From NCBI RefSeq assembly GCF_947501785.1, contig NZ_CANMXB010000001.1:2003048-2067047 (forward strand): a DNA stretch of 64,000 nt, given 5' to 3'. The notes beneath the pieces are model-generated. The model worked only from the letters and a program-made list of their open reading frames with translations, was not told the origin of the DNA and made no database searches. The translations under genes were made by a program, and so were the position numbers. Source of the stretch: an uncultured Litoreibacter sp. (lineage in GTDB: Bacteria; Pseudomonadota; Alphaproteobacteria; Rhodobacterales; Rhodobacteraceae). Below are positions 37,828 to 63,771 of this stretch, piece by piece (position 1 is the first letter of the stretch; each line of letters starts with the position of its first letter).

Positions 37828-37843
37828 CCCAGCCACCATTCAA

Positions 37844-41055: not shown

Positions 41056-41087
41056 TTGGATATATACCTCCATCCAACTGGCTCTAA
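41056..41087 (+). promoter_or_regulatory. tauR-box: Candidate TauR-binding direct repeats before xsc
   Basis: CTGGCTCTAA (41078-41087) matches the CTGGACYTAA-type box in 8 of 10 positions; 22 bp upstream TTGGATATAT (41056-41065) is a weaker copy. The 22-bp offset is exactly that seen before tpa, which strengthens both calls. The boxes lie 94-125 bp before the xsc start. Confidence 0.45.
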
Positions 41088-41180
41088 CCTAGACAGTTCT
41101 GCGACGCTAAGTTAGCCCCAACGTCAATACGGGGCCGTTTTGCCCCCGCGTTCCACCTCACGTTTAAGGGAGAGACCCCC

Positions 41181-42950: not shown

Positions 42951-42973
42951 TTCTCGCGCCATACTGCGACCTT

Positions 42974-42999
42974 ACCCGCCCCAAGACATTGGGGCGGGT
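42974..42999 (+). terminator. Strong hairpin between xsc and pta
   Basis: ACCCGCCCCAA (42974-42984) pairs perfectly with TTGGGGCGGGT (42989-42999) around a GACA tetraloop, followed by TTTC. pta starts 38 bp later. Likely a partial terminator or a 3' stabiliser that raises xsc message over the downstream genes. Confidence 0.75.
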
Positions 43000-43036
43000 T
43001 TCGTGGTGAAAAGGCTTGGTATTGGGAGAGACCACC

Positions 43037-44733: not shown

Positions 44734-44744
44734 GAGCCTTCGCC

Positions 44745-47561
44745 ATGAACCAACCCGTGATCAATCTGTCGCCCAAGGTCTCTGACGAGGTCCGCAAGAC
44801 CACCTGCTACATGTGCGCCTGCCGCTGCGGGATCAACGTCCACATGAAGGAGGGCAAGGTCGCCTATATCGAGGGCAACAAGGATCACCCGGTCAACCAA
44901 GGTGTGCTCTGCGCCAAAGGCTCAGCGGGCATCATGCAGCACAACGCCCCGTCCCGTCTGAAAGCGCCGATGAAGCGCGTCGGTCCTCGCGGGTCAGGCG
45001 AGTTCGAAGAAATCACGTGGGAAGAGGCCTACGACATCGCCGTCGGCATCCTGGAACCTGTGCGCCGCGACAACCCCGAAAAGCTGGCTTTCTTCACAGG
45101 CCGCGACCAATCGCAAAGCTTCACCTCCCTCTGGGCACAAGGTTTCGGCACCCCGAACTACGCTGCCCATGGCGGCTTCTGTTCCGTCAACATGGCCGCC
45201 GCTGGCATCTACACGATGGGCGGCGCGTTCTGGGAATTCGGCCAGCCCGACTGGGACCGCACCAAGATGGTGATGATCTTCGGCGTCGCGGAAGACCACG
45301 ATAGCAACCCGATCAAAATGGGCCTCGGTAAAGTCAAAGCGCGCGGCGCGAAGGTCTACGGCGTCAACCCGATCCGGTCCGGCTATAACGCGGTCGCCGA
45401 CGAATGGGTTGGCATCACCCCCGGCACCGACGGTCTGTTCATCCTGTCGCTGGTTCATGAGCTGTTCAAAGCCGGCAAGATCGACCTGCACTACCTCGCG
45501 CAATGGACCAACGCGCCTGTGCTGGTCAACGGCGACGAAAAGTCCGAAGACTTCGGCCTTCTTATGCGCGACAAAAACAACAAGCTGATGGTCATCGACC
45601 GCGCAACCGGCAAGCCTGCCGCTTTCGACAAGAAAGGCGTCAAGCCGGACCTCGCAGGTTCCCAACGCGTCAAAGGCGTCACCCACCGCTCTGTCTTCCA
45701 GCACATGGCGGAGAAATACCTCGACCCGCAATACGCCCCCGAGGCCGTCGCTGCTAAAACCGGCATCACAGCCGAACGCATCAAACGCATCGCGGCTGAA
45801 CTTGCCGACGTGGCCTTCAACCAAGCGATCGAGGTCAAGCAAACCTGGACCGATTTCCGCGGCGAAACACATGACAAATTTGTCGGCCGCCCCGTTTCCT
45901 TCCATTCCATGCGCGGTATCTCCGCCCATGCCAACGGCTTCCAGACCTGCCGCGCCCTGCACATGCTTCAGATCATCCTCGGCACCGTTGAGACCCCCGG
46001 CGGCATGCGCTTCAAACCGCCCTATCCCAAGCCGCCCGAGGCGCATCCAAAGCCGCATTGCAAGGTGACACCGGGCGAGGCGCTTGACGGCCCGCATCTG
46101 GGCTTCACCCATGGCCCCGACGATCTGGCGCTGAAGGAAGACGGCTCCCCCGCCCGCATCGACAAGGCCTTCACATGGGAAAACCCGATGTCGTCGCACG
46201 GCATGATGCACATGGTCATCTCCAATGCCCATGCCGGGGTTCCTTACAAGATCGACACGCTCTTCATGTATATGGCGAACATGTCGTGGAACTCCTCGAT
46301 GAACACGCGCGGCGTAATCGACATGCTGACCGACAAGGATGAAGACGGGAATTACGTCATCCCCAACATCATCTATTCGGACGCCTACAGCTCCGAAATG
46401 GTCAGCTACGCCGACCTGATCCTGCCCGACACAACCTATCTGGAACGCCACGACTGCATCAGCCTGCTGGACCGCCCGATCTGCGAGGCCGACGCCGTCG
46501 CCGACGCAATCCGCTGGCCCGTGGTCGAGCCCGACCGCGACGTCAAAGGCTTCCAATCCGCGCTCTGCGACCTCGGCGCGCGCCTCGGCCTGCCGGGCTT
46601 CGTCAACGAGGACGGCTCCCAGAAATACAAAGACTACGCCGACTACATCACCAACCACATCCGCCGCCCCGGCGTCGGGCCCTTGGCGGGCTTCCGAGGC
46701 AATGGCGACGAGCACGGGCGCGGAGACTCCAACCCCGGCCAACTCGATGCATATATCGACAATGGCGGCTTCTGGATGGAGCACGTCCCCGAGGACGCCG
46801 CCTTCTTCAAGCCATGGAACATGAACTATCAGGATTGGGCCGTCAAAAAATCCTTCTTCGACAAGCCTATGCCCTACCTGTTCAACCTCTACGTCGAACC
46901 CATGCGCCGCTTCCAACTCGCAGCCGAGGGCCATGGCACGCGTCAACCGCCTGATCATTTGCGAGAGCGGATCAAAGCGACAATGGACCCGCTGCCAATC
47001 TGGTACTCCAACGAAGACGAGAACAAGGCTGACGAATACCCCGTCACCGCCCTCACCCAACGCCCGATGGCGATGTACCATTCATGGGGCAGCCAAAACG
47101 CATGGCTCAGACAAATCCACGGCCACAACCCGCTCTATGTACCGACAAAAATCTGGGAAGAAAACAACTTCCAGGAAGGCGATTGGGCCAAGGTCGCCAG
47201 CCCGCATGGGGAAATCACCGTCCCCGTCGCGCATCAGGCCGCGCTGAACGAAAACACCATCTGGACATGGAACGCGATCGGCAAACGCAAAGGCGCATGG
47301 GCACTGGAAGAAGACGCGCCTGAGACCACCAAAGGCTTCCTGCTGAACCACCTGATCCACGAGCTGCTCCCCCCGAAAGGCGACGGCCTGCGCTGGTCCA
47401 ACTCCGATCCGATCACCGGCCAGGCCGCATGGTTCGACCTCAAGGTCCGCGTCGAAAAGGCCCCCACGCCGGAACAGCCGCAAACCAAACCCAACGTACC
47501 GGCACAGAAATCACCCGTCGGCAAAGGCCCTAAAAACCTGACATGGAAGCTCGGCAAATGA
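44745..47561 (+). CDS. soeA: Sulfite dehydrogenase SoeA, molybdopterin catalytic subunit
   Basis: 938-residue DMSO-reductase-family molybdoenzyme. The N-terminal [4Fe-4S] site is CYMCACRCGINVHM with a later CAKG (about 17-64). There is no twin-arginine signal, so it is cytoplasmic, as known for SoeA, unlike periplasmic relatives such as PsrA. Contains DHDSNPIKMGLGKVKARGAK and the C-terminal molydopterin domain (ALTQRPMAMYHSWGSQNAW). With SoeB and SoeC it oxidises sulfite to sulfate and gives electrons to quinone. Eleven bases after the tauE-like gene and coupled to soeB by ATGA. Confidence 0.9.
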   Translation: MNQPVINLSPKVSDEVRKTTCYMCACRCGINVHMKEGKVAYIEGNKDHPVNQGVLCAKGSAGIMQHNAPSRLKAPMKRVGPRGSGEFEEITWEEAYDIAVGILEPVRRDNPEKLAFFTGRDQSQSFTSLWAQGFGTPNYAAHGGFCSVNMAAAGIYTMGGAFWEFGQPDWDRTKMVMIFGVAEDHDSNPIKMGLGKVKARGAKVYGVNPIRSGYNAVADEWVGITPGTDGLFILSLVHELFKAGKIDLHYLAQWTNAPVLVNGDEKSEDFGLLMRDKNNKLMVIDRATGKPAAFDKKGVKPDLAGSQRVKGVTHRSVFQHMAEKYLDPQYAPEAVAAKTGITAERIKRIAAELADVAFNQAIEVKQTWTDFRGETHDKFVGRPVSFHSMRGISAHANGFQTCRALHMLQIILGTVETPGGMRFKPPYPKPPEAHPKPHCKVTPGEALDGPHLGFTHGPDDLALKEDGSPARIDKAFTWENPMSSHGMMHMVISNAHAGVPYKIDTLFMYMANMSWNSSMNTRGVIDMLTDKDEDGNYVIPNIIYSDAYSSEMVSYADLILPDTTYLERHDCISLLDRPICEADAVADAIRWPVVEPDRDVKGFQSALCDLGARLGLPGFVNEDGSQKYKDYADYITNHIRRPGVGPLAGFRGNGDEHGRGDSNPGQLDAYIDNGGFWMEHVPEDAAFFKPWNMNYQDWAVKKSFFDKPMPYLFNLYVEPMRRFQLAAEGHGTRQPPDHLRERIKATMDPLPIWYSNEDENKADEYPVTALTQRPMAMYHSWGSQNAWLRQIHGHNPLYVPTKIWEENNFQEGDWAKVASPHGEITVPVAHQAALNENTIWTWNAIGKRKGAWALEEDAPETTKGFLLNHLIHELLPPKGDGLRWSNSDPITGQAAWFDLKVRVEKAPTPEQPQTKPNVPAQKSPVGKGPKNLTWKLGK

Positions 47562-48298
47562 CCCAACTCCCAACCCATACCGAGAAGAAGCTCGGCCTTG
47601 TCATCGACCTCGACACCTGCGTCGGCTGCCATGCCTGCGTGGTGTCCTGCAAAGGCTGGAACACGGAAAACTATGGCGCGGCGCTCAGCGATCAAAACGC
47701 CTATGGCAAGGACCCTTCCGGCACCTTCCTGAACCGCGTGCACAGCTACGAAGTGCAACCGGAACAAGGCGCGGCACAGACCATCCACTTCCCCAAGAGC
47801 TGCCTGCATTGCGAGGACGCGCCCTGCGTCACCGTCTGCCCAACAGGCGCCAGCTACAAACGTGTCGAAGATGGCATCGTGCTGGTCAATGAAAGCGACT
47901 GCATCGGGTGCGGCCTCTGCGCATGGGCCTGCCCCTATGGCGCACGGGAACTCGACCAAGCCGAAGGTGTTATGAAGAAATGTACCCTCTGCGTCGACCG
48001 CATCTACAATGAAAACCTGCCCGAGGAAGACCGCCAACCGGCCTGCGTCCGCACCTGCCCCGCGGGCGCACGCCATTTCGGCGATCTGGGCGATGAAACC
48101 TCTGACGTCTCCGTGCTGGTAAAAGAACGCGGCGGGTTCGACCTGATGCCCGAGCAAGGCACCAAACCCGTCAACAAATACCTGCCGCCTCGTCCAAAGG
48201 ACGAGCAAATCGACATCCTCGCCCCCCTGTTGGAACCCGTGGCCGCTGAGCCAAAAGGCTTCCTTGGCTGGCTCGACAAAACGTTGGAGAAACTCTGA
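47558..48298 (+). CDS. soeB: Sulfite dehydrogenase SoeB, iron-sulfur subunit
   Basis: 246 residues from ATG 47558 (ATGA overlap with soeA). Four cysteine groups for [4Fe-4S] clusters are seen in the order of DmsB-like subunits: CVGCHACVVSCK (about 21-32), CLHCEDAPCVTVCP (about 82-95), CIGCGLCAWACP (about 115-126) and CTLCVDR ... CVRTCP (about 140-170). It carries electrons from SoeA to the membrane subunit. Confidence 0.92.
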   Translation: MTQLPTHTEKKLGLVIDLDTCVGCHACVVSCKGWNTENYGAALSDQNAYGKDPSGTFLNRVHSYEVQPEQGAAQTIHFPKSCLHCEDAPCVTVCPTGASYKRVEDGIVLVNESDCIGCGLCAWACPYGARELDQAEGVMKKCTLCVDRIYNENLPEEDRQPACVRTCPAGARHFGDLGDETSDVSVLVKERGGFDLMPEQGTKPVNKYLPPRPKDEQIDILAPLLEPVAAEPKGFLGWLDKTLEKL

Positions 48299-49173
48299 TG
48301 CACCCCGCACCCTCCATTATCTTCTTCACCGTCTTCTCCGGCCTCGGCTTTGGCATGCTGGCCTTCCTCGGTCTCGGCAAACCCGACGTTTCCGGCTTCA
48401 CCGCTTTCATCTTCTTTGCCATAGCCTATGCGCTTGCCGTGGGCGGCCTGATCTCCTCCACCTTCCACTTGGGCAACCCGCAACGCGCGCTAAAGGCCTT
48501 CACACAATGGAAAACGAGCTGGCTGTCGCGCGAAGGCTGCCTTGCCGTGGCCACCCTTATTGTCATGGGCCTCTACGCCATAGGGATCATCTTCTTTCAT
48601 ACGCGCATCGGCATTCTTGGCCTGTTGGGCGCGGCACTTTGCGTTTGTACGGTGCTCGGCACATCCATGATCTACACGCAGATCAAAACGGTTCCCCGCT
48701 GGCATCACTGGACCACGCCATTGGTTTTCCTAGGCTATGCCCTCACAGGTGGCGCGTTTCTAACCAGTCAGGTTCGCGTTGCCGCCGCAGGCCTCGTCAC
48801 CATTGGCGCGTTGCAGGTGATCGCATGGATCATTGGCGACAAACGTTTCGCGGAGGAAGGCTCAAGCATCGAGACCGCAACAGGCCTCGGCGCCATCGGC
48901 AAGGTCCGTATGTTCGAGGCCCCGCATTCCTCGAAAAACTACCTGATGAAGGAAATGGTCCACGTCATCGGCCGCAAACACGCCCGCACATTGCGCATCA
49001 TCGGCGTCGTTCTGCTGTCGCTGCTGCCATGGACGATCTTGATGTTCTTCCCGTTCAGCCATGTCCTGGCGGTCATCGCCCTATTGGCCCATGTCGCAGG
49101 CGCTCTAACTACGCGCTGGTTGTTCTTCGCGGAGGCAGAACACACGGTCGGCCTCTATTACGGGCAACGCTAA
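48298..49173 (+). CDS. soeC: Sulfite dehydrogenase SoeC, membrane anchor
   Basis: 291 residues, start overlapping the soeB stop by one base (TGATG). Eight or so hydrophobic helices without cofactor cysteines, resembling the DmsC anchor family. It anchors SoeAB to the inner membrane and should pass electrons to the quinone pool. Last gene of the xsc operon. 144 bp of non-coding DNA separate it from the convergent hpsN. Confidence 0.9.
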   Translation: MHPAPSIIFFTVFSGLGFGMLAFLGLGKPDVSGFTAFIFFAIAYALAVGGLISSTFHLGNPQRALKAFTQWKTSWLSREGCLAVATLIVMGLYAIGIIFFHTRIGILGLLGAALCVCTVLGTSMIYTQIKTVPRWHHWTTPLVFLGYALTGGAFLTSQVRVAAAGLVTIGALQVIAWIIGDKRFAEEGSSIETATGLGAIGKVRMFEAPHSSKNYLMKEMVHVIGRKHARTLRIIGVVLLSLLPWTILMFFPFSHVLAVIALLAHVAGALTTRWLFFAEAEHTVGLYYGQR

Positions 49174-49317: not shown

Positions 49318-50625
49318 TCAGTCGTAGCGTTCCTGTTGCGACACCTCGAAGTCAAACGCGGTCTTCCCGCTGAATTTCTGCAAACGCCAGTCGCAGGCCC
49401 GCGCATGACCGTCCATGCCCTCCAACCGAGACAGCCGCGACCCCACTTCCGACATTTCCGGGTCAGCATCGGTCGCAATCTCCTGCCAGGTCAGGATCTT
49501 GAGAAATTTCATCACGTTCAACCCGCCAGTATATCGCGCGGCCTGCCGCGTCGGCAGGATGTGGTTGGTCCCGGAGCATTTGTCGCCATGTGACACTGTC
49601 GAGCCTTCGCCAAGGAACAAAGACCCGTAATTGCGCAACCGGTCGCGCCACCATTCCAGATCTTTGGTTTGGACCTGCAAATGCTCGCACGCGTATTTGT
49701 CAGAAACCTCTGCCATCTGTTCGTTGTCTTCGCACACAATGATTTCGCCGTAGTCACGCCAGGACACCATTGCCACGTCGCCCGTAGGCCAATCTGCCGC
49801 GACTTGCGGCAGAATCCGGTTCACGGTTTCAGCCAGGTCAGACGAGGTTGTAAACAGCCACACCGGCGAATTCACCCCATGTTCGGCCTGCGACAACAAG
49901 TCAATTGCAACGGTCATCGGGTCGGCGGTTTCATCCGCAATCACGGCACTTTCGGTCGGCCCGGCAAACAGGTCGATCCCAACGCCGCCGAACAACTGGA
50001 TTTTCGCCTCAGCCACGAACGCATTGCCGGGTCCGACCAGAATGTCAGCGGGCTGCGTGCCAAATAGCCCAAACGCCATCGAGGCCACGGCCTGAACGCC
50101 GCCCATCTCCAAAATGACGTCCGCGCCCGCCAAGGTCATCGCATAGCAAACTGCGGGGTCAATCGCGTCTCCGCGCGGTGGTGAGGCCGCGATCACGAAC
50201 GGCACACCCGCCGCTTTCGCCGTTGCCACGCTCATCAAGGCCGAGGCGACATGCGCATAGCGCCCCCCCGGCACGTAACAACCGGCGCAATCGACTGGCA
50301 CGCATTTTTGGCCCAGCATAACACCCGGCTCGGTCTCAATGGAAAAGTCGCTCAAGCTGGCGCGCTGCGCGGCTGCAAATCGGGTGATCTGGCGATGCGC
50401 AAATTCGATATCGCGTTTGGCCTGCTCGGGAACCTGGGCCACCAAGGCATCCCGCTTCTGTGGTGACAACACGAAGTCACCCCTCCAACCATCAAGTTTC
50501 TTGGCATAGTCCCGCACGGCATCTTCGCGACCTTCCCGGATCGTAGCCAGCATTTCGGCAACCAAGCCGCGCGTTTTGGTGTCTTCAGCCACTTTGTCAA
50601 CGACGGGAGATTTGATGTGTTTCAT
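49318..50625 (-). CDS. hpsN: Sulfopropanediol 3-dehydrogenase (HpsN), histidinol-dehydrogenase family
   Basis: 435 residues. The histidinol-dehydrogenase zinc site is conserved with family spacing: Gln246, His249, Asp348 and His407 (SQAEHG, GDKCSGTNH, DGHARA). The NAD fold contains GCYVPGGRYAHVASALMS. A short N-terminal region differs from HisD, and no his genes are near. HpsN oxidises (R)-2,3-dihydroxypropane-1-sulfonate (DHPS) to sulfolactate with NAD. The assignment rests on family resemblance to HpsN and on the surrounding sulfonate genes. Final gene of a leftward unit with three genes of unknown role. Confidence 0.8.
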   Translation of the reverse strand: MKHIKSPVVDKVAEDTKTRGLVAEMLATIREGREDAVRDYAKKLDGWRGDFVLSPQKRDALVAQVPEQAKRDIEFAHRQITRFAAAQRASLSDFSIETEPGVMLGQKCVPVDCAGCYVPGGRYAHVASALMSVATAKAAGVPFVIAASPPRGDAIDPAVCYAMTLAGADVILEMGGVQAVASMAFGLFGTQPADILVGPGNAFVAEAKIQLFGGVGIDLFAGPTESAVIADETADPMTVAIDLLSQAEHGVNSPVWLFTTSSDLAETVNRILPQVAADWPTGDVAMVSWRDYGEIIVCEDNEQMAEVSDKYACEHLQVQTKDLEWWRDRLRNYGSLFLGEGSTVSHGDKCSGTNHILPTRQAARYTGGLNVMKFLKILTWQEIATDADPEMSEVGSRLSRLEGMDGHARACDWRLQKFSGKTAFDFEVSQQERYD

Positions 50626-54099: not shown

Positions 54100-55542
54100 C
54101 TAAAAGTCGATCGCGGTGTATTTGGTTTCCATGTAGTCCTCCAGGCCTTGGCTGCCGCCCTCTTTGCCCAGCCCGCTTTCCTTCACCCCGCCAAACGGCG
54201 CCTCTACGGTGGTGATCAGGCCAGAGTTGATCCCGATCATCCCGTATTGCAGCTTTTCGGTCAGCTTGAAGATACGGCCAACGTCACGGGTGTAGGCGTA
54301 AGACGCCAGCCCGAATTCAGTGTCATTGGCCCAACCAATCGCTTCATCTTCGTCCTCAAACTTGAAGACCGGCGCGATGGGGCCAAAGATCTCTTCCTTG
54401 GCGAACATCATGGACTGGGTGGCCTCCGAAATAATGGTCGGTTCAAAGAAGCTTTGCCCCTTGTCATGGCGGTTGCCGCCATGCACGACCTTGCCGCCTT
54501 TGGCTGTCGCGTCGGCGATGAACTCTTCCACCTTCTCAACCGCGTCCATGTCGATCATCGGGCCTTGCTCCACGCCGTCTTCCAGCCCGTTGCCCACTTT
54601 CATGGCCGCCGTGGCCTTGGTCAGCTTCTCGACAAACTCGTCATAAACGCCCGCCTGCACGTAGATGCGGTTGGCGCATACGCAGGTTTGGCCGGAGTTG
54701 CGGAATTTCGACACCATCGCGCCAGCGACGGCCTTGTCGATATCAGCGTCATCAAACACCATGAACGGCGCGTTGCCGCCCAGCTCCATCGACACTTTCT
54801 TCACGGTACCCGCCGATTGCCGGATCAGCTCTTTGCCGACTTCGGTGGAGCCGGTGAATGTCACCTTGCGCACCCGCGGGTCATCCATAATCGCCCCGCC
54901 AATTTTGCGAGCCGAGCCCGTCACCACATTGACCGAGCCCGCCGGGAAACCGGCCTCTTCCGCAAGCGCGCCCCATGCCAATCCGGAATACGGCGTCGCG
55001 GTCGCGGGCTTGGCCACCACGGTGCAGCCAATCGCTAGCGCGGGCGCCACTTTGCGGGCCAGCATCGAGGACGGGAAGTTCCAGGGTGTGATCATGCCCA
55101 CCACACCAATCGGGTGCTTGGACACGAGGAACCGGCGGCCATTGGTTGGCGCAGGGATAATCTCACCCTTGGCGCGGCGCACCTCTTCAGCAAACCAGCG
55201 CACATAGGCGGCACCAATGCCAATCTCACCCATGGATTCCGCCAGCGGCTTGCCCATTTCCACGGTCAACAGCTCGGCCAGCGTCTTCTGGTTGTCCATC
55301 AACGCATCATGGACCTTCATCAAAAGCCCGACGCGTTCCATCAACCCCATGCCGGCCAGCCCGTCAAAGGCCGCGTCCGCCGCGTCAACCGCGCGCAGTG
55401 TTTCCGCATCGCCAGAATTCGGAACTGTGCCGATAACCTCACCCGTCGCCGGGTTCGTCACGTCGATGGTCTCGCCGCTGTCAGCCGCGACCCATGCGCC
55501 GCCAATGAGGTTCGCCTCTTTCATGTATTTGGTGTAGCTCAT
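54100..55542 (-). CDS. NAD(P)-dependent aldehyde dehydrogenase, probable sulfolactaldehyde dehydrogenase
   Basis: 480 residues of the succinate-semialdehyde dehydrogenase (GabD) group. Catalytic Glu is in MELGGNAPF near 252, catalytic Cys in SGQTCVCANR near 287, and TPWNFPSSMLARKVAPALAIGCTVV is the coenzyme domain. GabD-like enzymes oxidise 3-sulfolactaldehyde (SLA) to sulfolactate in known sulfosugar pathways; that role is inferred here from the operon. An ordinary succinate-semialdehyde role cannot be excluded. Last gene, seven bases after the mutarotase gene. Confidence 0.85.
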   Translation of the reverse strand: MSYTKYMKEANLIGGAWVAADSGETIDVTNPATGEVIGTVPNSGDAETLRAVDAADAAFDGLAGMGLMERVGLLMKVHDALMDNQKTLAELLTVEMGKPLAESMGEIGIGAAYVRWFAEEVRRAKGEIIPAPTNGRRFLVSKHPIGVVGMITPWNFPSSMLARKVAPALAIGCTVVAKPATATPYSGLAWGALAEEAGFPAGSVNVVTGSARKIGGAIMDDPRVRKVTFTGSTEVGKELIRQSAGTVKKVSMELGGNAPFMVFDDADIDKAVAGAMVSKFRNSGQTCVCANRIYVQAGVYDEFVEKLTKATAAMKVGNGLEDGVEQGPMIDMDAVEKVEEFIADATAKGGKVVHGGNRHDKGQSFFEPTIISEATQSMMFAKEEIFGPIAPVFKFEDEDEAIGWANDTEFGLASYAYTRDVGRIFKLTEKLQYGMIGINSGLITTVEAPFGGVKESGLGKEGGSQGLEDYMETKYTAIDF

Positions 55543-55549
55543 CGCTCAG

Positions 55550-56536
55550 TCATCCTTTGGAAAACGCAAATTGCGTGTGTTGTTCATACACTTCGCCGGG
55601 GCGCAGCACCGCATTGGGGAAGGCCGGGTGGTTGACCGCGTCCGGCCAGACCTGAGGCTCCAACGCAACCCCTGCGTTCTTGCCGTAGCGCCGCCCACCA
55701 AGACCCGCAGGCCCGACATCTAACTTGAACCCGTCATAAACCTGCAGCCCCGTCTCGGTCGAGCGGATTTGCATCGAAACACCCGATTTTTGGGAAACAA
55801 GAGTCCCAATTTTCCGCAAATCGACACGTCCGTTCGAAAGGCACAGGTTGTGGTCGATGAAAACCTCATCCTTGATCGGCCGCATCAGTCGGAAATCGTA
55901 TCGCGTGCCGTCGACGCGGCGGCTTTCACCGGTCGGGATAAAGCCGTCATTAACTACGGTCATATGCTCCGCATCCACCTGCATCAGGTGGTCATCGGTG
56001 GTCGCGCCGCCATCAAGGTTCCAATAGCTGTGATGGGCAAAGTTGCACAATGTCGGCGCATCCGTTTCCGCCGTAATCTGCACGTCAAAAACGCCCCCGG
56101 GCAGGCAAGCATAGGTGCAGCGCGCCACCATGTTGCCGGGGTAGCCCATCTCGCCATCGGCCAATGCGATGCTCAGGGTGATCCTGTCGGCTTCGACGGT
56201 TTCAACAGACCAGTTGCGTTTGCCAACCCCCTTGGCTCCACCATGCAGATGGTGTCGCTCCTGAAAGTTGCGGTCGACCTGAAAGGCCCTCCCATCAATG
56301 AAAAACTGCCCCTCCCCAATGCGGTTGGCACAACGCCCGGCAATGGCTCCGAAATAGGGGGAATCCGTCAAATAGGGCGCAAACTCTTCGAACCCCAACA
56401 CCAGCGGCGCGTCATGGCCGTCTAGCCGCAGGTCTTGCAGGACAGCGCCATATGACAAGACATGCGCCGTAAGCCCGCCGCCTTCGATGGTGTGGCGCTC
56501 AACTGCGTCGCCGTCCGGCATTACGCCAAAACTCAT
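55550..56536 (-). CDS. Aldose 1-epimerase family protein, possible sulfoquinovose mutarotase
   Basis: 328 residues. GalM-type motifs: GRCANRIGEGQF near 70 (Asn/Arg), LHGGAKG (first His) near 97, FAHHSYWNLDG near 167-177 (catalytic His), and VALEPQVWPDAVNHP near 287 (catalytic Glu). It interconverts sugar anomers. Start overlaps the Gfo/Idh gene stop by ATGA. In an operon with a sugar isomerase and kinase it would prepare the anomer used by the isomerase. Confidence 0.85.
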   Translation of the reverse strand: MSFGVMPDGDAVERHTIEGGGLTAHVLSYGAVLQDLRLDGHDAPLVLGFEEFAPYLTDSPYFGAIAGRCANRIGEGQFFIDGRAFQVDRNFQERHHLHGGAKGVGKRNWSVETVEADRITLSIALADGEMGYPGNMVARCTYACLPGGVFDVQITAETDAPTLCNFAHHSYWNLDGGATTDDHLMQVDAEHMTVVNDGFIPTGESRRVDGTRYDFRLMRPIKDEVFIDHNLCLSNGRVDLRKIGTLVSQKSGVSMQIRSTETGLQVYDGFKLDVGPAGLGGRRYGKNAGVALEPQVWPDAVNHPAFPNAVLRPGEVYEQHTQFAFSKG

Positions 56537-57624
56537 GGGCCTTTCCCTCGCAAATCAATCGCCTGTCCCGAGCGCGCGGATTCCTCCGCCGCTTCACCGA
56601 CCAACACGGACCAGTAGCCATCCATCAAGGACACCTCCGGTTCACCTTTACCTGTCCGAACGAGGTTGAGAAACTTCTCATGCTGGAAGAACGTGGACCC
56701 ATGATGGTCCCCCGCCGCCAAAATATGCTCCGGCACATGCACGACCTCCCGCACCTCTTCTTTCAAGGCCCGCAATGACATCACAAACTCCGCCTCCCGC
56801 TCTTTGCCGTCGGGGGAGAACCGCGCAGGTCCCGGCACAAACGCCTCCACCCGCGCCTTTTCTCCAGTGACCGCGACGCTTTCCTGCCAGAACGAGCCTT
56901 CCGCAAACATGCACAAATCCAGCATGCCCCGCGCGCCATTCTCAAAATCCACCACAACATAAGCGTTGTCGATAATGTCGGGCATCTTGCCCATGTAGCG
57001 CTCGTCCCTGTGGTTCACATCGACCCCGCCCGAGGCATAGACACGCACTGGGTCAGACTTCAAAATCAACCGCATAAGGTCCCAGAAATGGCAGCATTTC
57101 TCTGTCAGAGTGCCGCCGGTGCGTGCGTTGAACCGGTTCCAATCGTCCACCTTGGGCAGAAACGGAAACCGGTGTTCCCGGATCGACATCATGCGTGGGG
57201 TGCCCACGGCACCCTGATCAACTGCCTGCATCAGCCGTTGCAACGGCGGCATGTAGCGGTATTCCATCGCCACCCAGACCGGGGCCAATCGCCCCTTGGA
57301 CATGTTCAGCAGGTCCCGGCAATCCGCGCTTGTCGTCGCCAACGGCTTTTCGACCAGAATGGGCTTATCGGTCGCCAGCAGCTTCTGCATGATCCCCGCA
57401 TGCGTATCATTTGGCGCGGCAATCAGCACAACGTCGCAGGCATCCGCCGCCAGCATCTCCTCCATCGTGGCATATCCGGCCCCGCCAGAGCTTTGCATGG
57501 ACTGCGCCCGCATTTCGTCGTTTGGCTCTGCAATGGCCGATACTTTCGCACCTTCAAGCAGCGCGATGTTGCGGATATGCTCTTGGCCCATCATGCCAGA
57601 GCCGATGATCCCGTATCTAATCAC
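56533..57624 (-). CDS. Gfo/Idh/MocA oxidoreductase family protein, candidate NAD+-dependent sulfoquinovosidase
   Basis: 363 residues starting at GTG 57624, which overlaps the isomerase stop (GTGA). Rossmann motif GIIGSGMMGQEHIRN at residues 5-19, the family motif EKPLATT near 94-100, and GGTLTEKCCHFWDLM near 168 carrying the catalytic Lys and His. Families of this fold include sugar dehydrogenases and NAD+-dependent glycosidases; the GH188 group acts on sulfoquinovosides. No GH31-type sulfoquinovosidase (YihQ) is in the window, so this protein is the best candidate to release sulfoquinovose. Activity is inference. Confidence 0.75.
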   Translation of the reverse strand: MIRYGIIGSGMMGQEHIRNIALLEGAKVSAIAEPNDEMRAQSMQSSGGAGYATMEEMLAADACDVVLIAAPNDTHAGIMQKLLATDKPILVEKPLATTSADCRDLLNMSKGRLAPVWVAMEYRYMPPLQRLMQAVDQGAVGTPRMMSIREHRFPFLPKVDDWNRFNARTGGTLTEKCCHFWDLMRLILKSDPVRVYASGGVDVNHRDERYMGKMPDIIDNAYVVVDFENGARGMLDLCMFAEGSFWQESVAVTGEKARVEAFVPGPARFSPDGKEREAEFVMSLRALKEEVREVVHVPEHILAAGDHHGSTFFQHEKFLNLVRTGKGEPEVSLMDGYWSVLVGEAAEESARSGQAIDLRGKGP

Positions 57625-58973
57625 GCGCCCAACTCCACGACATTCAGTCCCATTCCGGCCGCGATCCCGCGCAACGCGTTGCGGTGGTCGCCATAGGCAA
57701 TCGCCATGTGATGCTCCAACCCGCAATCCATTACGTCGCGCAGTGTTTTCTGCGCAGCATGGTCAAATCTCACCACACCGGAGGTTCCCGTGAACGCCAT
57801 TTCGCTGCGCAGCATTTCTCCGCCCGCTATGATCACTTTCGGCTCACCATAGGCCTGCGACAGGCGGAAAAACGTCACCCGTCCCGGCTTCAAAGTGAAC
57901 TCGTAAAGCAAAGCCTGTTTGCGGTTGGTATGCACCGTAGCCATCGGTTCATCATCCGTCATGGACAGCGGCGCCTGCCCGCAATGCCAAACCACGCCGG
58001 TGTTGTCGTTTACGTCCATATCTACGAGATCGGCCAAGAAAACAGGGCTATCCGCCACTTTTTGCAAGATCGCCTGCGTCACCGCACCGTAGACATCGGC
58101 CTCGCACGCGCACGGCACCCGCGCTTCGCCCATCATGGACACCGGCCCGCAGACGGCCCCGCCATATTCGGTAAACGTCTCCGGCCAGCAGCGGATTGCG
58201 AAGGCGTCATAACCGTTTTCGCTGCGCAGCATTTCCAACGCGCCTGCCAGCTTTAGGGAGCGGTCCAGCTCTCCCGCATCCATCTCCTTCAGGTTCGGCA
58301 CATCCGCCACTTTCGCGCGGTAAGGCGCAACCGCAGCATCGTCGAGGCCGCGTGCCGCGTCGAACATGTCCTCCAGCGCCAATTCATCGACCGTGGCCCC
58401 CGTCAGCACCTTCAGCTCCGCCTTGTCGTAGGCACAGGTGTCAAATCCCACGGGATGCGCCCCAATGCGCGCGATCTTCAAATCCGGCACCGGCATATCA
58501 GATGCCGCAACACCAGCTGCCGCCCCGTCAATCCGAGACACCGCATAGTCGCCAGCCAACAACCCCGCCAAATCCGCCTCACCCGGATCGGCGTATAGCC
58601 AGCCAAACCCAACCCCGTTGCGCCCCAAGGCGTGGCCCGCAAGGTTCAACCCGCAAAACGCGTTCAAACGCAGTCGCCCGCCCAACCGAGGCTCCGGCAC
58701 CGCCCAAATCGCCAGCGGCACACCCAGCTTTGACGCCTCCACCACGAACGCCGCGTCGGTAAATGTCACCTGCAACACCAACACCAGATCAGCCGACGCA
58801 ACACTCGATAATGCCTCCGGCGACCCCTCCATCAGCAGAGCGCGCGGCCCGATGACCTCGTGGCCCTGTTCCGAAGCAAGCACATCAATATCCGCCAGCA
58901 TCCCAGCCAGTTTCTCTTCCGCATAGGGTACGTCGAATGTGGGCCGCCCCAGCGGCAATATCCCGATCTTCAT
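57621..58973 (-). CDS. Fucose/arabinose-isomerase-family protein, candidate sulfoquinovose isomerase
   Basis: 450 residues. Metal-binding motifs of the FucI/AraA fold are seen: Glu in RCWPETFTEYGG near 255-265 and CEADVYGAVTQAIL near 280, and a C-terminal GDHRNALRG. In the sulfo-transaldolase and some sulfo-EMP pathways a member of this superfamily (SqvD type) turns sulfoquinovose into sulfofructose, unlike the AGE-type YihS of E. coli. Assignment is by family and context. Coupled to the aldolase by TGATG and to the Gfo/Idh gene by GTGA. Confidence 0.72.
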   Translation of the reverse strand: MKIGILPLGRPTFDVPYAEEKLAGMLADIDVLASEQGHEVIGPRALLMEGSPEALSSVASADLVLVLQVTFTDAAFVVEASKLGVPLAIWAVPEPRLGGRLRLNAFCGLNLAGHALGRNGVGFGWLYADPGEADLAGLLAGDYAVSRIDGAAAGVAASDMPVPDLKIARIGAHPVGFDTCAYDKAELKVLTGATVDELALEDMFDAARGLDDAAVAPYRAKVADVPNLKEMDAGELDRSLKLAGALEMLRSENGYDAFAIRCWPETFTEYGGAVCGPVSMMGEARVPCACEADVYGAVTQAILQKVADSPVFLADLVDMDVNDNTGVVWHCGQAPLSMTDDEPMATVHTNRKQALLYEFTLKPGRVTFFRLSQAYGEPKVIIAGGEMLRSEMAFTGTSGVVRFDHAAQKTLRDVMDCGLEHHMAIAYGDHRNALRGIAAGMGLNVVELGA

Positions 58974-59998
58974 CAGAGGCCCTCATACCCATGCCTAAAC
59001 GACGCGTCCGCAGGCGCAAATTGCGCACCACCTGCGCCCCAACACACGTGCTGATCCCACGCCACAGCCTTCGCATCCGCCAAAGCCGAAATCTCCGCCA
59101 TATAGGCCGCGCTTTCGCCTTCCAGGCCTGCGCGCACCGCGTCCCAATCGGGGAACGCCTGAAACGCGTCCAGCCAAATCGCGCGCCCTGCCAGGAAGCC
59201 CGAGGCTCCGGCGGCAAAGGCGTGCTCCAAAATCTGCTTGAACTCAGGCTTGCCTGCTCCTGCCGACAACATCACCCAAGGCCGCGCCGCGATACGCCCC
59301 ATCTCGTCAAACAGCGCCTGAACGCCTTCGGTGGCCGCCACATCCTTGGCAGGCACCGGGCTTTCCAGCTTGAACACGTCCACGCCGTAGTCGGCATGCG
59401 CAAATTCCTCGACGGAGCGCAAAACATCATCCGCCCGCTTGGTGTTCATCTCCACATATTCGCTGGTCTGTTCGCTATCGCTGTCAATCGGATGCACCAG
59501 CAGTTCAAACAGGAACGGGATGTCGTATTTGGCGCAGGCCTCCCCAATCCGCTTGGTCCAGTCCTTCTGGTGCTGGTTCACGGCGTCGGACGCGTCAGGC
59601 CGGTACCACGCCAGCACCTTCACCGCGTCGCCGCCCATGCGCTTGATCTTGCCCACGTCCCAGTCGTCGATCATAGAGGACCGCCGCCCCATGCCGGTTT
59701 CTTCAAACAGCGAGTCCTCCAGCGTCACGATCAGCCCTTTGGTGGGTGACAGGTGCTTCAGCCCCACCGGGATGGCGTAATGCGGGTCCAGCAGCATGGC
59801 GCTTGATCCGCCTTGCAGCGTCTCCACCAGCATCGCCTTGAACCGCGCCACGTCGTCGTAAGGCGCGTCCGCAGCACCGTAATGCGCGGCAATCGGGCCT
59901 TTGATCGGCGGGCGCTGATCGACCGCCGTCATCTTGAACACCCCGTTCGCGTCGGCCATGCGCCGCATGCCCCATAGTTTGCCTGCTGTCAGCTGCAT
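58973..59998 (-). CDS. LacD/YihT-like class I aldolase, candidate sulfofructose-phosphate aldolase
   Basis: 341 residues, a TIM barrel of the tagatose-bisphosphate aldolase group. Near the start FKMTAVDQRPPIK holds the Asp/Gln/Arg of the phosphate side; YGVDVFKLESPVPAKD near 207-222 should hold the Schiff-base Lys; LSAGAGKPEFKQILEHA and GFLAGRAIWLDAF are family-like. YihT is the E. coli aldolase splitting sulfofructose-1-phosphate to DHAP and sulfolactaldehyde. Longer than YihT by about 50 residues. Starts 1 bp after the kinase stop. Confidence 0.75.
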   Translation of the reverse strand: MQLTAGKLWGMRRMADANGVFKMTAVDQRPPIKGPIAAHYGAADAPYDDVARFKAMLVETLQGGSSAMLLDPHYAIPVGLKHLSPTKGLIVTLEDSLFEETGMGRRSSMIDDWDVGKIKRMGGDAVKVLAWYRPDASDAVNQHQKDWTKRIGEACAKYDIPFLFELLVHPIDSDSEQTSEYVEMNTKRADDVLRSVEEFAHADYGVDVFKLESPVPAKDVAATEGVQALFDEMGRIAARPWVMLSAGAGKPEFKQILEHAFAAGASGFLAGRAIWLDAFQAFPDWDAVRAGLEGESAAYMAEISALADAKAVAWDQHVCWGAGGAQFAPADASFRHGYEGL

Positions 59999-59999
59999 C

Positions 60000-60860
60000 T
60001 CATGCTCTCTCTTTCAGAAACTGTTCCACCTCGGCCCGGGAGGGCGCGGCTTTGCGCCCCCCAAAGCCCGTGCATTTCAAAGCGGCCGCCGCATGGGCAA
60101 ACCGCATCGCATCCATCTCGCCCGCGCCCTCGCCCAGCCGCAGGGCAAACGCCCCGTGCCAGATGTCGCCCGCGCCGAGCGTGTCTTTCACATCCACCTT
60201 GAAACCCGGCATCACCCCGCCCGGGTGCAACACGCCATCCGCGCCCAGGGTCACCGCGCACCAGCCCGGCAGGTCCAGCGCGGCGTAGGCGGCGTGCACG
60301 TCGTCCATACCGGTAAAATCCATCAAGCCCTGTTCGGAAAACACCACATGGCTGGCCGCTGCCGCCAGTTCCACCGGCACCGGGGCCTCCCCGTCCAACA
60401 CTGCCGGTATCCCCAGCGCGCGGCCCAACTCGATCACCTGACGCGTGGCTTCTGGCCAACGGGTGTCTGCCAGAACGGCGTCGGCGCTCAGCTCGGACAA
60501 CTCGGGGTCCTGCGCCAACCCGGCGCCACGAAAGGCCATGATTTGCCGTTCGCCGGCCTCGTCAACATAGACGGACGACATGGCCGACCGCGCGCCGTTG
60601 GTGATGACACAGGCGGATGTGTCTACATTTTCTGACAAAATATCCCCAAGAACGATCTCAGATACTTCATCTTTGCCGAATCTTGCTAATAATTGGGACT
60701 TTCCGCCCAGTCGGGCGATGCCCACTGCGGCGTTTGCCGCACATCCGCCCCCAACTATATCCACAGCCCTCGCCGCGTATTTTTCGGCCCGCTGGGGCAA
60801 AACATCGACCTGGTAGACAAAATCCAACGCGGCGGAGCCCGCAACCATGACGCGCGCCAT
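60000..60860 (-). CDS. PfkB-family sugar kinase, candidate sulfofructose kinase
   Basis: 286 residues from ATG 60860 (TTG 60863 also possible). Ribokinase-family signature GGGCAANAAVGIARLGGK near 35-52 and the catalytic DTLGAGDIWHGAFAL near 225-239, with Asp in GAGD as base. YihV, the sulfofructose kinase of E. coli, belongs to this family. Sits between the peroxidase gene (TGATG overlap) and the aldolase gene, so its product would feed the aldolase directly. Substrate is inferred. Confidence 0.75.
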   Translation of the reverse strand: MARVMVAGSAALDFVYQVDVLPQRAEKYAARAVDIVGGGCAANAAVGIARLGGKSQLLARFGKDEVSEIVLGDILSENVDTSACVITNGARSAMSSVYVDEAGERQIMAFRGAGLAQDPELSELSADAVLADTRWPEATRQVIELGRALGIPAVLDGEAPVPVELAAAASHVVFSEQGLMDFTGMDDVHAAYAALDLPGWCAVTLGADGVLHPGGVMPGFKVDVKDTLGAGDIWHGAFALRLGEGAGEMDAMRFAHAAAALKCTGFGGRKAAPSRAEVEQFLKERA

Positions 60861-62113
60861 CAATCCACCCTCAACCCGCTGGGGACGCTTTTGGGTTTGC
60901 CCAAACGCCCGTAAATGGATTTCTTGCCGGTCAGCGCACCCATGAAGGCCACAAGATCCATGATCTCATCGTCACTCAAATGTTGCGGCTCCAAATCAAG
61001 CGACGCTCTGACCCGCGCCATCTCCCGGCTGTCTTCGTGAATAATGAAGTCGGCCTGCTGCAGCCAGGGCACTGACGGCAGCTGCGCCATCTCCGGCCTC
61101 CATTCATCCAGCCCGGTCAAAGGGTCCAGATGGTGCCGGATGATCCCCTCCAACGTCGCATAAGCGCCATTATGGCCATACGGCCCCGTCACCGCGACGT
61201 TGCGCAATGACGGCGTGCGGAAGCGGTAAGCGTCCTCCAACGCGTCGCTTTCCGCCATCCGCCCCACATCGCGCGGCATCGGGTCAAACCGGCGGGTGCG
61301 GCCCGGACCAAAGGGTGGCAGCCCGATGGCATGGAAGTCCTGATCGGTAAAGAGCGGCCCGCTATGGCAATCCGCGCAGCCCGCGTCGCCAAAAAACAAG
61401 TCATGCCCCCGCATCTGCGCGGCATCCATGGATCCAACGTCATAGGCGCTATCAAAGGACCGCCACTCCGCGTCCATAAACGCACCCAGCGCGTTGCCTA
61501 TGTCCGCGATGGAGATCTCCTCCACGCCCACCTCCGCAAACATCTCGCGGTATTCATCGATGATGCGCACGCGCTTGGCCAAGATAGGCCAGGCCATATC
61601 AATGCGGTCATGAATGGCCCCGGCCACCTCATTTTCCTTGGGGTTGCCCGCCATTTCGAACTGCGAAGTCATCGGGAACAGCGCCTGCGTCGCGAGCAAT
61701 GTTTCAAGCCCGTCGGGCAAGAACTCCTCAGCCGGGGAATTCACGCCATTGCCGTAATCCGGTGACGCGCCCAGCCGCCCGTCGTGGAAGAAGACCTCCA
61801 GCGCGCCCACGTTAAACAGGGCCTGCGCATTGCGTGGGATGCGCTTCTTGATCTGGTTCGGCCCGTCTTGGGCCACGCGTTTCGGCCCCACTCCAACGCC
61901 GCCCTCGCCAATTCCGAGGCTCACACCATCGGCGGAAAACGTATCGTGGTTATGGCACGTCCCGCAGGAAATGTTGCGGTTCCCAGACAGGATTGGATCG
62001 TAAAACAGCAGCTGACCTATCGCGGCCAGGTCCTCGTCAATCGGGTCAAACATCCCCGCGGGCGCATCAGACATTGCAGGCCCCGCCAAGCCCAGCCAAA
62101 CTGCCCCCAACAA
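60860..62113 (-). CDS. Di-heme cytochrome c peroxidase/MauG family protein
   Basis: 417 residues. Two heme-attachment motifs, CGTCH (about 57-61) and CADCH (about 225-229), with the family's RIPRNAQALFNVGALEVFFHDGR and RFRTPSLRNVAVTGPYGHNGAY segments. Periplasmic in homologues, either reducing hydrogen peroxide or oxidising a partner protein. The start is uncertain: TTG 62113 gives a hydrophobic LLGAVWLGLAGPAMSDA signal-like start; no ATG precedes it in frame. Its start is only 12 bp from the divergent Sel1 gene. Its stop overlaps the kinase start, so it is unexpectedly part of the sugar operon. Confidence 0.82.
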   Translation of the reverse strand: MLGAVWLGLAGPAMSDAPAGMFDPIDEDLAAIGQLLFYDPILSGNRNISCGTCHNHDTFSADGVSLGIGEGGVGVGPKRVAQDGPNQIKKRIPRNAQALFNVGALEVFFHDGRLGASPDYGNGVNSPAEEFLPDGLETLLATQALFPMTSQFEMAGNPKENEVAGAIHDRIDMAWPILAKRVRIIDEYREMFAEVGVEEISIADIGNALGAFMDAEWRSFDSAYDVGSMDAAQMRGHDLFFGDAGCADCHSGPLFTDQDFHAIGLPPFGPGRTRRFDPMPRDVGRMAESDALEDAYRFRTPSLRNVAVTGPYGHNGAYATLEGIIRHHLDPLTGLDEWRPEMAQLPSVPWLQQADFIIHEDSREMARVRASLDLEPQHLSDDEIMDLVAFMGALTGKKSIYGRLGKPKSVPSGLRVD

Positions 62114-62125
62114 ACGGAGACCGAC

Positions 62126-62593
62126 ATGCGCTTTCTTGCCATCCTCGCCCTGATGACCCTTCCGGCTGCCGCCGATATCGAAAAAGCCCGCGACCTTATG
62201 GAGGCCAACAAATTCGAAGAGGCGCGGGAGGCCCTTTGGCCTGCGGCCCGGTCCGGCAACGCCGACGCGGAGGAGCTGATCGGCGTCATGTACGCGCTTG
62301 GCCTTGGCGTCGAAAAGGACCCGGTTCGGGCGTTTGAATGGTATTTGCGCAGCTCGATGAAGGGTCATCCCGGCGCGCAATCCGGCATTGGATGGTACTA
62401 CGAGGAAGGCATCGGCATGCCCGCCCCGGACCTTGTCCGCGCCTACATGTGGTACGCGCTTAGCGCCATCGGCGGTGACCCCGACGCGGCTATCTCCCAG
62501 GAGGAGGTGGTCAAGAAGATGACCCAAGAGCAGATTGATCATGCGCATGAGCTGATCGCCGATTACAAAGTTTGGATGTATCCGTTCCGTTGA
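62126..62593 (+). CDS. Exported Sel1-like repeat protein, 155 aa
   Basis: Signal peptide MRFLAILALMTLPAAA, then about three Sel1/TPR-like helical repeats (ADAEELIGVMYALGLGVEKD, HPGAQSGIGWYYEEGIGMP, VRAYMWYALSAIGGD). A short periplasmic protein that probably mediates protein contacts. It faces away from the peroxidase gene with 12 bp between starts, so each promoter must lie inside the other gene or overlap. Twin hairpins follow. Confidence 0.85.
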   Translation: MRFLAILALMTLPAAADIEKARDLMEANKFEEAREALWPAARSGNADAEELIGVMYALGLGVEKDPVRAFEWYLRSSMKGHPGAQSGIGWYYEEGIGMPAPDLVRAYMWYALSAIGGDPDAAISQEEVVKKMTQEQIDHAHELIADYKVWMYPFR

Positions 62594-62694: not shown

Positions 62695-63771
62695 TTACTT
62701 CAGATCAGCGTCACGCGCGGCATTCACCGCTGCTTCCGCCTCGGCCACAGCCGCCGTCAGCGCGTCAAACGCCGCGCCGCCACCGTCAACATTGGATTTG
62801 AACCAGTCATAGACCGGGGCCGCCGCGTCTTTGAAGGCCGCTTTCTGCTCCGGTGTTGGCACATAAAGGTCGCCGCCAGCCGCGACGAAATCCTCGTAGG
62901 CCTGGATCGACTTGCGCTTCGGCGAGGCAAACGTGGCCTGCTGCAGCTGGTAGAACCCGTCCACAACAACGCGCTTCAGCCCGTCATCCATCGACTGGAA
63001 CTTTTCGTTGTTCATGAACCACAGCGCGCCCATGTATGCGTGGCCATCCAAGGTCACGTATTTCAGGCCCGCATCAGGGAACTTCATGTTCATGATGTCC
63101 GTGATGCCGTTCTTTGATCCTTCCACAACGCCCGTCTGGAACGAGGTGAACAGCTCAGGCCATGGGATCGGGGTGGGCGACGCGCCAAGCGCTTTCACCA
63201 GCTCTTGCGGCAGGTCAGCCACAACAGTCCGGATCTTCAGCCCGTCCATGTCACCCGGCTCCGCCACGCGGCGCTTGGTGTTGGCAAAGTTGCGCCAGCC
63301 GCCCGTGTTGCCGATGGTCATCAGGCGGATGCTGTCGCCGGACGCTTCCTTGACCATGTCCTGCATGGTGGTGGTGAAGCCCGACCCGTTGGCCAAGGCG
63401 GCCTCCGCAATCCGGTCATCTGCCATCAGGTAAGGCAGGTCCAGAACCTGGATGAACGGGAAGATCCCCGACACCCCGCCCGAGGTGGACACATAGACGT
63501 CGATCGTGCCGTCGCCCACGCCCTGCAGGCACTCTGCGCCGTTGCCGCACAGCTGCGTGCCGATGAACAGCTCAACCGTGATCGCACCGTTGGATGCCGC
63601 CTCCACGTAGTTCTTGAACACGACCAGGCCGTCATAATCCTCGTCATTCTCGTTCGAGTTCGCGGTCGCGCGGATGGTCATCGCATGACCGTCCGCCCAG
63701 GCCGCAACGCTGGTGCCGGCCATCAAGGCCGCAAGGCCCAACGCCTTCAATGTGTTTCCAAGTTTCATCAT
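62695..63771 (-). CDS. TRAP transporter substrate-binding protein (DctP type)
   Basis: 358 residues with signal peptide MMKLGNTLKALGLAALMAGTSVAAWA. DctP landmarks: FTTTMQDMVKEASGDSIRLM near 130 and LKIRTVVADLPQELVKALGASPTPIPWPEL near 185-215 (given in outline), with Arg in KIRT as the likely carboxylate or sulfonate ligand. Cys pair near 75 and 80 (LCGNGAEC) may form a disulfide. Position next to the sulfosugar operon makes an anionic sulfonate or sugar acid ligand plausible, but this is not proven. ATG 63771 or 63768 as start. Confidence 0.88.
   Translation of the reverse strand: MMKLGNTLKALGLAALMAGTSVAAWADGHAMTIRATANSNENDEDYDGLVVFKNYVEAASNGAITVELFIGTQLCGNGAECLQGVGDGTIDVYVSTSGGVSGIFPFIQVLDLPYLMADDRIAEAALANGSGFTTTMQDMVKEASGDSIRLMTIGNTGGWRNFANTKRRVAEPGDMDGLKIRTVVADLPQELVKALGASPTPIPWPELFTSFQTGVVEGSKNGITDIMNMKFPDAGLKYVTLDGHAYMGALWFMNNEKFQSMDDGLKRVVVDGFYQLQQATFASPKRKSIQAYEDFVAAGGDLYVPTPEQKAAFKDAAAPVYDWFKSNVDGGGAAFDALTAAVAEAEAAVNAARDADLK

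Follow-up and report, generated by a model that had tools for sequence, protein, structure and literature searches.

The question raised by the locus described here is which sugar an uncultured Litoreibacter sp. degrades with a compact run of six genes, and whether that sugar carries a sulfonate. Sulfoquinovose (SQ) is the sugar of the plant sulfolipid; much sulfur is cycled through its turnover, in which bacteria of the Roseobacter type are prominent. The window, i.e. the whole analysed stretch of 64,000 nucleotides, corresponds to C1:2003048-2067047 within a 3.9 Mb genome (C1 being contig NZ_CANMXB010000001.1), and the nearest named relatives, as found by searching with the isomerase of the locus, were Litoreibacter. 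Six minus-strand open reading frames (ORFs) at 54100-60863 encode, in the direction of transcription, a PfkB-family kinase (60000..60863), a class I aldolase of the LacD/YihT family (58973..59998), a fucose-isomerase-family protein (57621..58973), a Gfo/Idh/MocA-fold protein (56533..57624), an aldose-1-epimerase of the galactose mutarotase family (55550..56536) and a GabD/SlaB-like aldehyde dehydrogenase (54100..55542). Their junctions range from a 4-base overlap to a 7-base gap, and the Gfo/Idh/MocA gene, which has a GTG start, overlaps the stop of the isomerase gene. The Pfam families found were PfkB (2e-34), DeoC/LacD (5e-26), Fucose_iso_C (2e-10), GFO_IDH_MocA, Aldose_epim (2e-68) and Aldedh. 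ORF positions, junctions and Pfam thus agree with the original prediction, made from the bare sequence, of six tightly coupled genes of these families.

Judged from families, residues, coupling, conservation and co-occurrence, the operon very probably encodes a complete hybrid sulfo-Embden-Meyerhof-Parnas (sulfo-EMP) pathway for SQ glycosides. A tripartite ATP-independent periplasmic (TRAP) system would import SQ or sulfoquinovosylglycerol, the Gfo/Idh/MocA-fold protein, a candidate glycosidase of family GH188, would free SQ via transient NAD-dependent oxidation at C3, and the mutarotase would equilibrate the SQ anomers. The SqvD-type isomerase would then convert SQ to sulfofructose, the PfkB kinase would phosphorylate this to sulfofructose-1-phosphate, the class I aldolase would cleave the latter to dihydroxyacetone phosphate (DHAP) and sulfolactaldehyde, and the GabD-like dehydrogenase would oxidise sulfolactaldehyde to sulfolactate. 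SQ as the substrate, originally proposed from the enzyme families, gains support from the GH188 residues, the isomerase model and a TRAP receptor common to SQ-monooxygenase clusters; the oxidative exit to sulfolactate, also part of that proposal, is likely.

The substrate class is fixed better by the GH188 candidate than by any other gene, and its assignment goes beyond the original prediction, in which the protein was placed only in the Gfo/Idh/MocA family. The best solved-structure matches were 8zn9 (E 3e-117), named only 'Oxidoreductase, putative', 8qc3 (5e-110) and 8qc2 (3e-108), followed by the next match at 1e-23; according to Kaur et al. (2023, PMC10755693), 8qc3 and 8qc2 are SqgA enzymes. 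Alignment to 8qc3 demonstrated that the sulfonate ligands Arg166, Leu170 (backbone) and Lys172 are kept, in the motif EHRFPFLPK, and that the catalytic and SQ contacts Lys107, Tyr136, Glu189, His193 and His321 are all identical. Altogether, the protein retains 8/8 residues that contact SQ in the published ArSqgA complex, the residue numbering having been checked by counting against PMC10755693. An active site devoid of sulfonate-binding residues, which would have spoken against the original prediction, was not seen in this protein, in which every SqgA sulfonate ligand is present. Among relatives' SqgA proteins, the sulfonate-ligand motif was matched in 65/72 (seven were unmatched by the pattern) and the catalytic and SQ-contact motifs in 63/72. 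The protein is probably a GH188 NAD-dependent sulfoquinovosidase (SqgA), and with it the operon would not be short of a glycosidase.

For the isomerase, the only NCBIfam match at E 1e-3 was NF048012, the model of SQ isomerase (SftI), with an E-value of 3e-72. The best 41 Foldseek matches of its AlphaFold2 model (pLDDT 90.5) were L-arabinose, D-arabinose and L-fucose isomerases, with TM-scores of 0.45-0.58 by query length. Residues Glu291 and Asp315 are invariant and lie 24 residues apart, a spacing that we take to be the same as that of the FucI metal ligands Glu337 and Asp361. The protein is probably an SQ isomerase of the SqvD/SftI type.

Comparison of the kinase with the solved YihV gave an E-value of 8e-48 at 39% identity, and 2rbc, an unassigned sugar kinase, matched it at 1e-48. 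Lys28 and Arg135 of the kinase align with Lys27 and Arg138 of YihV, presumably sulfonate ligands there together with Asn109, and are kept in 100% and 99%, respectively, of 73 relatives' kinases. Three of the eight other PfkB matches in the same genome could be aligned; these paralogues are without both residues, save one Arg. The enzyme is probably a YihV-like sulfofructose kinase. Lys210 and Arg272 of the aldolase align with YihT Lys193 and Arg253, which we take to be the Schiff-base lysine and a functional residue, respectively, and the aldolase is probably a class I sulfofructose-1-phosphate aldolase; the solved chain closest to it, 8tnf (E 1e-88), is named only DUF2090 domain-containing protein. 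The epimerase is a possible SQ mutarotase by family. Residues Cys287, Glu253, Arg163 and Arg281 of the dehydrogenase match, by motif, RlGabD Cys295, Glu261, Arg171 and Arg289, the arginines being shared by succinate semialdehyde dehydrogenases (SSADHs). The RlGabD paper (PMC10599462) proposes Arg171 and Arg289 as sulfonate residues, with Cys295 and Glu261 being catalytic. The window enzyme is probably a GabD/SlaB-like sulfolactaldehyde dehydrogenase.

When genome contigs were scanned for the isomerase, 468 relatives were obtained, of which the best 80 named loci were kept, some of them cut by contig ends. Genes for the kinase, aldolase, isomerase and SqgA were all present in 65 of these 80 loci, and 32 had the order dctP-kinase-aldolase-isomerase-sqgA-mutarotase-aldehyde dehydrogenase. 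Counted singly, the kinase was found in 75 loci, sqgA in 73, the aldolase in 72, dctP in 67 and the mutarotase in 47.

Several observations weigh against a sulfo-EMP pathway for SQ. No NCBIfam or Pfam model names the kinase or the aldolase as a sulfofructose enzyme in scans of the operon proteins. For NF048012, which has a cut-off of 700 bits, the isomerase reaches 243.6, for which reason it is called SqvD-type and not SqvD. As for the sulfonate positions of YihV to which the kinase was to be compared, the presumed Lys and Arg ligands are kept but the presumed contact Asn109 is replaced by Ala. The aldolase is 28% identical to YihT and closer to LacD, and in a BLAST comparison at 1e-3 the epimerase did not match YihR of E. 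coli. The dehydrogenase reaches 637 bits with the SSADH model, 9 short of the cut-off of 646, near enough that it could be an SSADH, although this model is not discriminating. Furthermore, the aldehyde dehydrogenase gene is present in only 42/80 loci. Eight loci lacking it were opened, and a D-2-hydroxyacid dehydrogenase gene was found directly after sqgA or the mutarotase gene in five of them (L028, L041, L048, L066 and L081); it was not in the ORF list of L044, L056 and L058, of which L056 shows a sulfopyruvate decarboxylase alpha gene. In L062, the same type of gene directly follows the aldehyde dehydrogenase gene. Its product, scanned in L028, L048 and L062, had phosphoglycerate dehydrogenase as the best NCBIfam match, and it resembles a gene beside comDE in the present genome, which, in favour of the pathway, ties the cluster to sulfolactate.

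The remaining points on that side concern the aldolase, since 9/99 relative loci are without a LacD aldolase nearby. Eight of these nine were searched, and no clear substitute was found beside the cluster; the window aldolase was matched at only 26-29% identity, in 4/8 genomes, and class II aldolases (PF01116) were above the cut-off in 7/8 genomes, none of them tied to the cluster. The cluster of Zymomonas mobilis pZZM402 (L009, L014) has the same function set as the window operon, i.e. an isomerase (42% identity), SqgA (46%), an aldehyde dehydrogenase (45%), a mutarotase and a PfkB kinase (35%), together with a class II aldolase. This indicates that enzymes of unrelated families can carry out the aldolase step and supports the proposed role indirectly; reviews also describe unrelated aldolases at this step in hybrid clusters. 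The pZZM402 cluster contains a TonB receptor and MFS transporters as well and looks like a hybrid SQ cluster.

Directly upstream of the kinase gene, and not described in the original prediction, lies a gene for a probably periplasmic di-heme protein of the cytochrome c peroxidase (CCP)/MauG family (60860..62125, minus strand, start codon approximate; CCP_MauG 6e-28), whose stop overlaps the kinase start. Divergent from it is a gene for a Sel1-repeat protein with a signal-peptide-like start (62126..62593, plus strand; Pfam Sel1), and next comes dctP (62695..63771, minus strand), encoding a TRAP solute-binding protein that, from its Pfam family and the distribution of its orthologues, is a probable receptor for SQ or SQ glycosides; genes for DctM, DctQ and a DeoR-type regulator come after dctP, just beyond the window. 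The two CxxCH motifs of the di-heme protein are invariant among 23 aligned sequences. The same alignment has an invariant His-His at residues 331-332, presumably about where Met in bacterial CCPs or Tyr in MauG is the second heme ligand. Modelling the structure of the protein gave a poor pLDDT of 65.7, and its Foldseek matches, MauG and bacterial CCPs, add little beyond Pfam. The di-heme gene occurs in 60/80 isomerase loci (in L043 and L083 partially, at the locus edge), and Sel1 adjoins it in relatives.

The distribution of these genes was followed in 394 genomes of the family Rhodobacteraceae, the counts ignoring shared ancestry. The isomerase was found in 32/394 genomes (E 1e-40) and a monooxygenase in 165/394 (E 1e-80), the latter being taken as the SQ monooxygenase from its family and gene set; the present genome had no match to it at E 1e-80. 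The two occur together in 2 genomes, where 13.4 would be expected (Fisher 6.5e-6, without phylogenetic correction). GH188 was detected in 192/394 genomes (E 1e-60), among them 32/32 with the isomerase and 161/165 with the monooxygenase, and only one GH188 genome has neither pathway. These figures suggest that a minority (32/394) uses a carbon-cutting, sulfolactate-forming route, most SQ users (165/394) carrying genes for splitting the C-S bond. DctP orthologues (E 1e-140) are present in 142/394 genomes, 139 of which have an SQ pathway, and were found in 31/32 isomerase and 110/165 monooxygenase genomes.

Close orthologues of the di-heme protein were defined by at least 55% identity, a line set after viewing the list of matches; the counts cover the matches listed and may leave out copies that are short or score low. 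Genomes having only more distant copies served as the control. Among the matches listed, 108 genomes have close orthologues; an SQ pathway is present in 106 of these and DctP likewise in 106, whereas an SQ pathway is present in 50/119 genomes having only distant copies and in 39/167 having none. Twelve stretches around close copies, ten from genomes without the isomerase and two (G326, G332) from genomes with the isomerase elsewhere, contain Sel1 in all twelve, dctP in nine and another SqgA in four. Eight of these stretches were opened, and each has a luciferase-like monooxygenase gene within it or at its border, with aldo/keto reductase and flavin reductase genes, read in part, beside it; Pfam confirmed the set in L144. 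Such proximity to monooxygenase clusters rules out the di-heme gene as a marker of the sulfo-EMP cluster alone. The module goes together with SQ and with the TRAP system, yet it is not needed everywhere, and its association with SQ supports SQ as the operon substrate independently of the operon itself.

It is tentatively suggested, as a possibility on which we put somewhat less than even weight, that TRAP, Sel1 and di-heme genes form a single SQ acquisition module in the Rhodobacteraceae, pluggable into hybrid sulfo-EMP or SQ-monooxygenase (sulfo-SMO) pathways, with the di-heme and Sel1 proteins working for uptake. The di-heme protein may, for example, mature a partner protein, or the substrate ahead of its import, by oxidation. 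Alternatively, though with somewhat less weight, the Sel1 and di-heme genes are bystanders travelling with the TRAP genes and take no part in SQ use. The di-heme family is indeed common (227/394 genomes at E 1e-60), and the gene is missing from 20/80 isomerase loci. Although 75/108 close copies lie within 15 kb of an isomerase or monooxygenase gene (150/165 monooxygenase places being listed), such a copy lies within 15 kb of only 20/32 isomerases and 55/150 listed monooxygenases. Among the matches listed, 34 of the 195 SQ genomes combine DctP with no close di-heme copy, and both are missing from 55. Against mere co-travel stand the enrichment of SQ pathways among close orthologues as compared with both other groups, the TRAP receptor in 106 of the 108 genomes, and the occurrence of the di-heme gene next to two unrelated SQ pathways. 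If the acquisition module is real, it would be a pathway-independent marker for SQ use, and it raises the question why an SQ importer is accompanied by a MauG-like protein. A role of the di-heme protein in SQ use was not found in the literature searched, a search that does not exclude an SQ TRAP system already described; judged from titles and the beginnings of abstracts, the papers found on SQ together with cytochrome c peroxidase were a diatom and a Lotus/Mesorhizobium study.

With regard to the operon itself, it may be asked whether its substrate is a different 6-sulfo sugar, for example sulfofucose (6-deoxy-6-sulfo-D-galactose), degraded via sulfotagatose and sulfotagatose-1-phosphate. The fucose-isomerase and LacD/tagatose-bisphosphate-aldolase families would fit the sulfofucose configuration, and a sulfofucose-degrading Paracoccus strain is known for which an EMP route was considered from PfkB and LacD-family genes of its cluster (PMC12421959). 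The same source reports, however, that an Entner-Doudoroff route was shown in that strain, that levels of the EMP-like proteins did not rise on sulfofucose and that the strain did not grow on SQ. Since the GH188 candidate, the SQ-isomerase model and the TRAP receptor common to SQ-monooxygenase clusters all point to SQ, this alternative is very unlikely. An operon for a non-sulfonated 6-deoxy sugar, yielding DHAP and lactaldehyde and then lactate, with the Gfo/Idh/MocA protein as an ordinary dehydrogenase, would suit enzyme families that alone fit any ketose-1-phosphate route and an SSADH-like dehydrogenase model, but it is scarcely credible in view of the kept SqgA sulfonate triad and kinase Lys/Arg pair, the sulfonate genes nearby and the sulfolactate-type dehydrogenase in relatives. 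No characterised operon for a non-sulfonated sugar with identical gene order turned up, no specific search having been made.

The sulfo-EMP operon proposed here shares features with several known systems. Like the E. coli yih and Arthrobacter AK01 sulfo-EMP pathways, it pairs a YihV-like kinase with a class I aldolase from the YihT superfamily, and Arthrobacter AK01 also has a GH188 sulfoquinovosidase and a GabD-type dehydrogenase giving sulfolactate. Unlike in E. coli, the isomerase belongs to the fucose-isomerase family and not to that of YihS, and the aldolase is closer to LacD; YihS, YihQ, YihU and YihR had no match among the 11 window proteins compared, no genome-wide search having been made. 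The difference in glycosidase from E. coli originally claimed therefore holds with respect to YihQ, but the Gfo/Idh/MocA gene would supply a GH188 glycosidase in its place. Sulfo-EMP2 of Bacillus urumqiensis similarly has an SqvD-type isomerase and an SlaB-type dehydrogenase, whereas its SqiK kinase is of the PfkA family (PF00365; PF00294 in the window), its SqiA aldolase is class II (PF01116; PF01791 in the window) and its SqvB mutarotase is of another family than the galactose-mutarotase-type window protein. Sulfo-SMO clusters of the Roseobacter clade resemble the locus in having GH188, the TRAP receptor and often the di-heme/Sel1 pair, but a luciferase-like monooxygenase, an aldo/keto reductase and a flavin reductase replace the sulfo-EMP enzymes. 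Jannaschia faecimaris DSM 100420 (L032) shares the gene set and its order, the stretch between sqgA and the mutarotase gene being about 1 kb longer; this species is named in a GH188 figure legend of Kaur et al. (2023, PMC10755693). Reviews report hybrid sulfo-EMP1/2 sets from Proteobacteria and Actinobacteria, and Backlund and Higgins (2024, PMC11465081) describe GH188 with a fucose isomerase, sulfofructose kinase, sulfofructose phosphate aldolase and sulfolactaldehyde dehydrogenase in Actinobacteria. The operon is thus not a new kind, hybrid sulfo-EMP and GH188-fucose isomerase clusters being in print, and the label 'non-canonical' is justified only in comparison with E. coli. What looks new is the upstream TRAP/Sel1/di-heme module, common to sulfo-SMO clusters and marking SQ genomes, which is unmentioned in the available text of PMC10755693 and PMC11465081.

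The presence of HpsN, Xsc and TRAP genes nearby, already pointed out in the original prediction, agrees with a solved-structure match, TIGR03457 and Pfam, respectively. The gene at 49318..50625 (minus strand) encodes an HpsN-like dehydrogenase of 2,3-dihydroxypropane-1-sulfonate (DHPS, sulfopropanediol), an auxiliary sulfonate entry; its best solved relative is sulfopropanediol 3-dehydrogenase (8v35, E 2e-154) versus 5e-66 for the best histidinol dehydrogenase. Sulfoacetaldehyde acetyltransferase, Xsc, is encoded at 41181..42950 (plus strand; TIGR03457, 930 bits, cut-off 676), and it is followed on the same strand by genes assigned by Pfam to a Pta-like phosphate acyltransferase, a TauE-family exporter and a molybdenum (molybdopterin) oxidoreductase with two following ORFs (43016..49173). 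The last three are presumably SoeABC, from gene order; no specific NCBIfam model matched at the molybdenum oxidoreductase genes, and the Xsc/Soe pair originally named is therefore confirmed for Xsc, with Soe presumed from Pfam family and gene order. Elsewhere in the genome, comDE lies at C1:1816790-1817826 (beta, TIGR03846, above the cut-off; alpha, TIGR03845, 143.9 versus 147.95) next to a D-2-hydroxyacid dehydrogenase-type gene that, from this position, we take to be SlcC-like. This dehydrogenase, ComDE and the window Xsc would convert sulfolactate to sulfopyruvate, sulfoacetaldehyde and finally acetyl-phosphate and sulfite, and DHPS would enter through HpsN. Together, HpsN, Xsc and ComDE would allow full mineralisation. 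The region 34901-49173 has the appearance of a taurine-type sulfonate island, with a taurine-family ABC receptor, a class III aminotransferase and a MocR regulator in addition to Xsc, the Pta-like protein, TauE and the molybdenum oxidoreductase. Between hpsN and the operon (50736-53958) are genes for a 547-aa and a 209-aa protein without Pfam or NCBIfam match and for an M19 dipeptidase, which are kept in several Litoreibacter relatives.

Some isomerase loci show other gene sets. On a plasmid of Candidatus Chlorohelix allophototropha (L010), an SqvD-like isomerase lies beside a diphosphate-dependent phosphofructokinase, sulfite reductase and siroheme genes, an aldehyde dehydrogenase and an ABC transporter, a possible SQ cluster. 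Plasmids of Parasedimentitalea and Paracoccus (L011, L012) carry a distant isomerase (23-26%) with a tagatose-bisphosphate-type aldolase, DhaK and DAK2 genes, a GntR regulator, an ABC transporter and a nucleoside hydrolase, indicating a sugar pathway. Reduced clusters of kinase, isomerase and aldehyde dehydrogenase were seen in L062, L069, L075 and L088, where the stretch examined contains no gene for SqgA, the mutarotase or the aldolase. In L039, L050, L067, L071 and L087 the window kinase is unmatched, with the di-heme gene, aldolase, isomerase and SqgA present, and the kinase may be replaced there.

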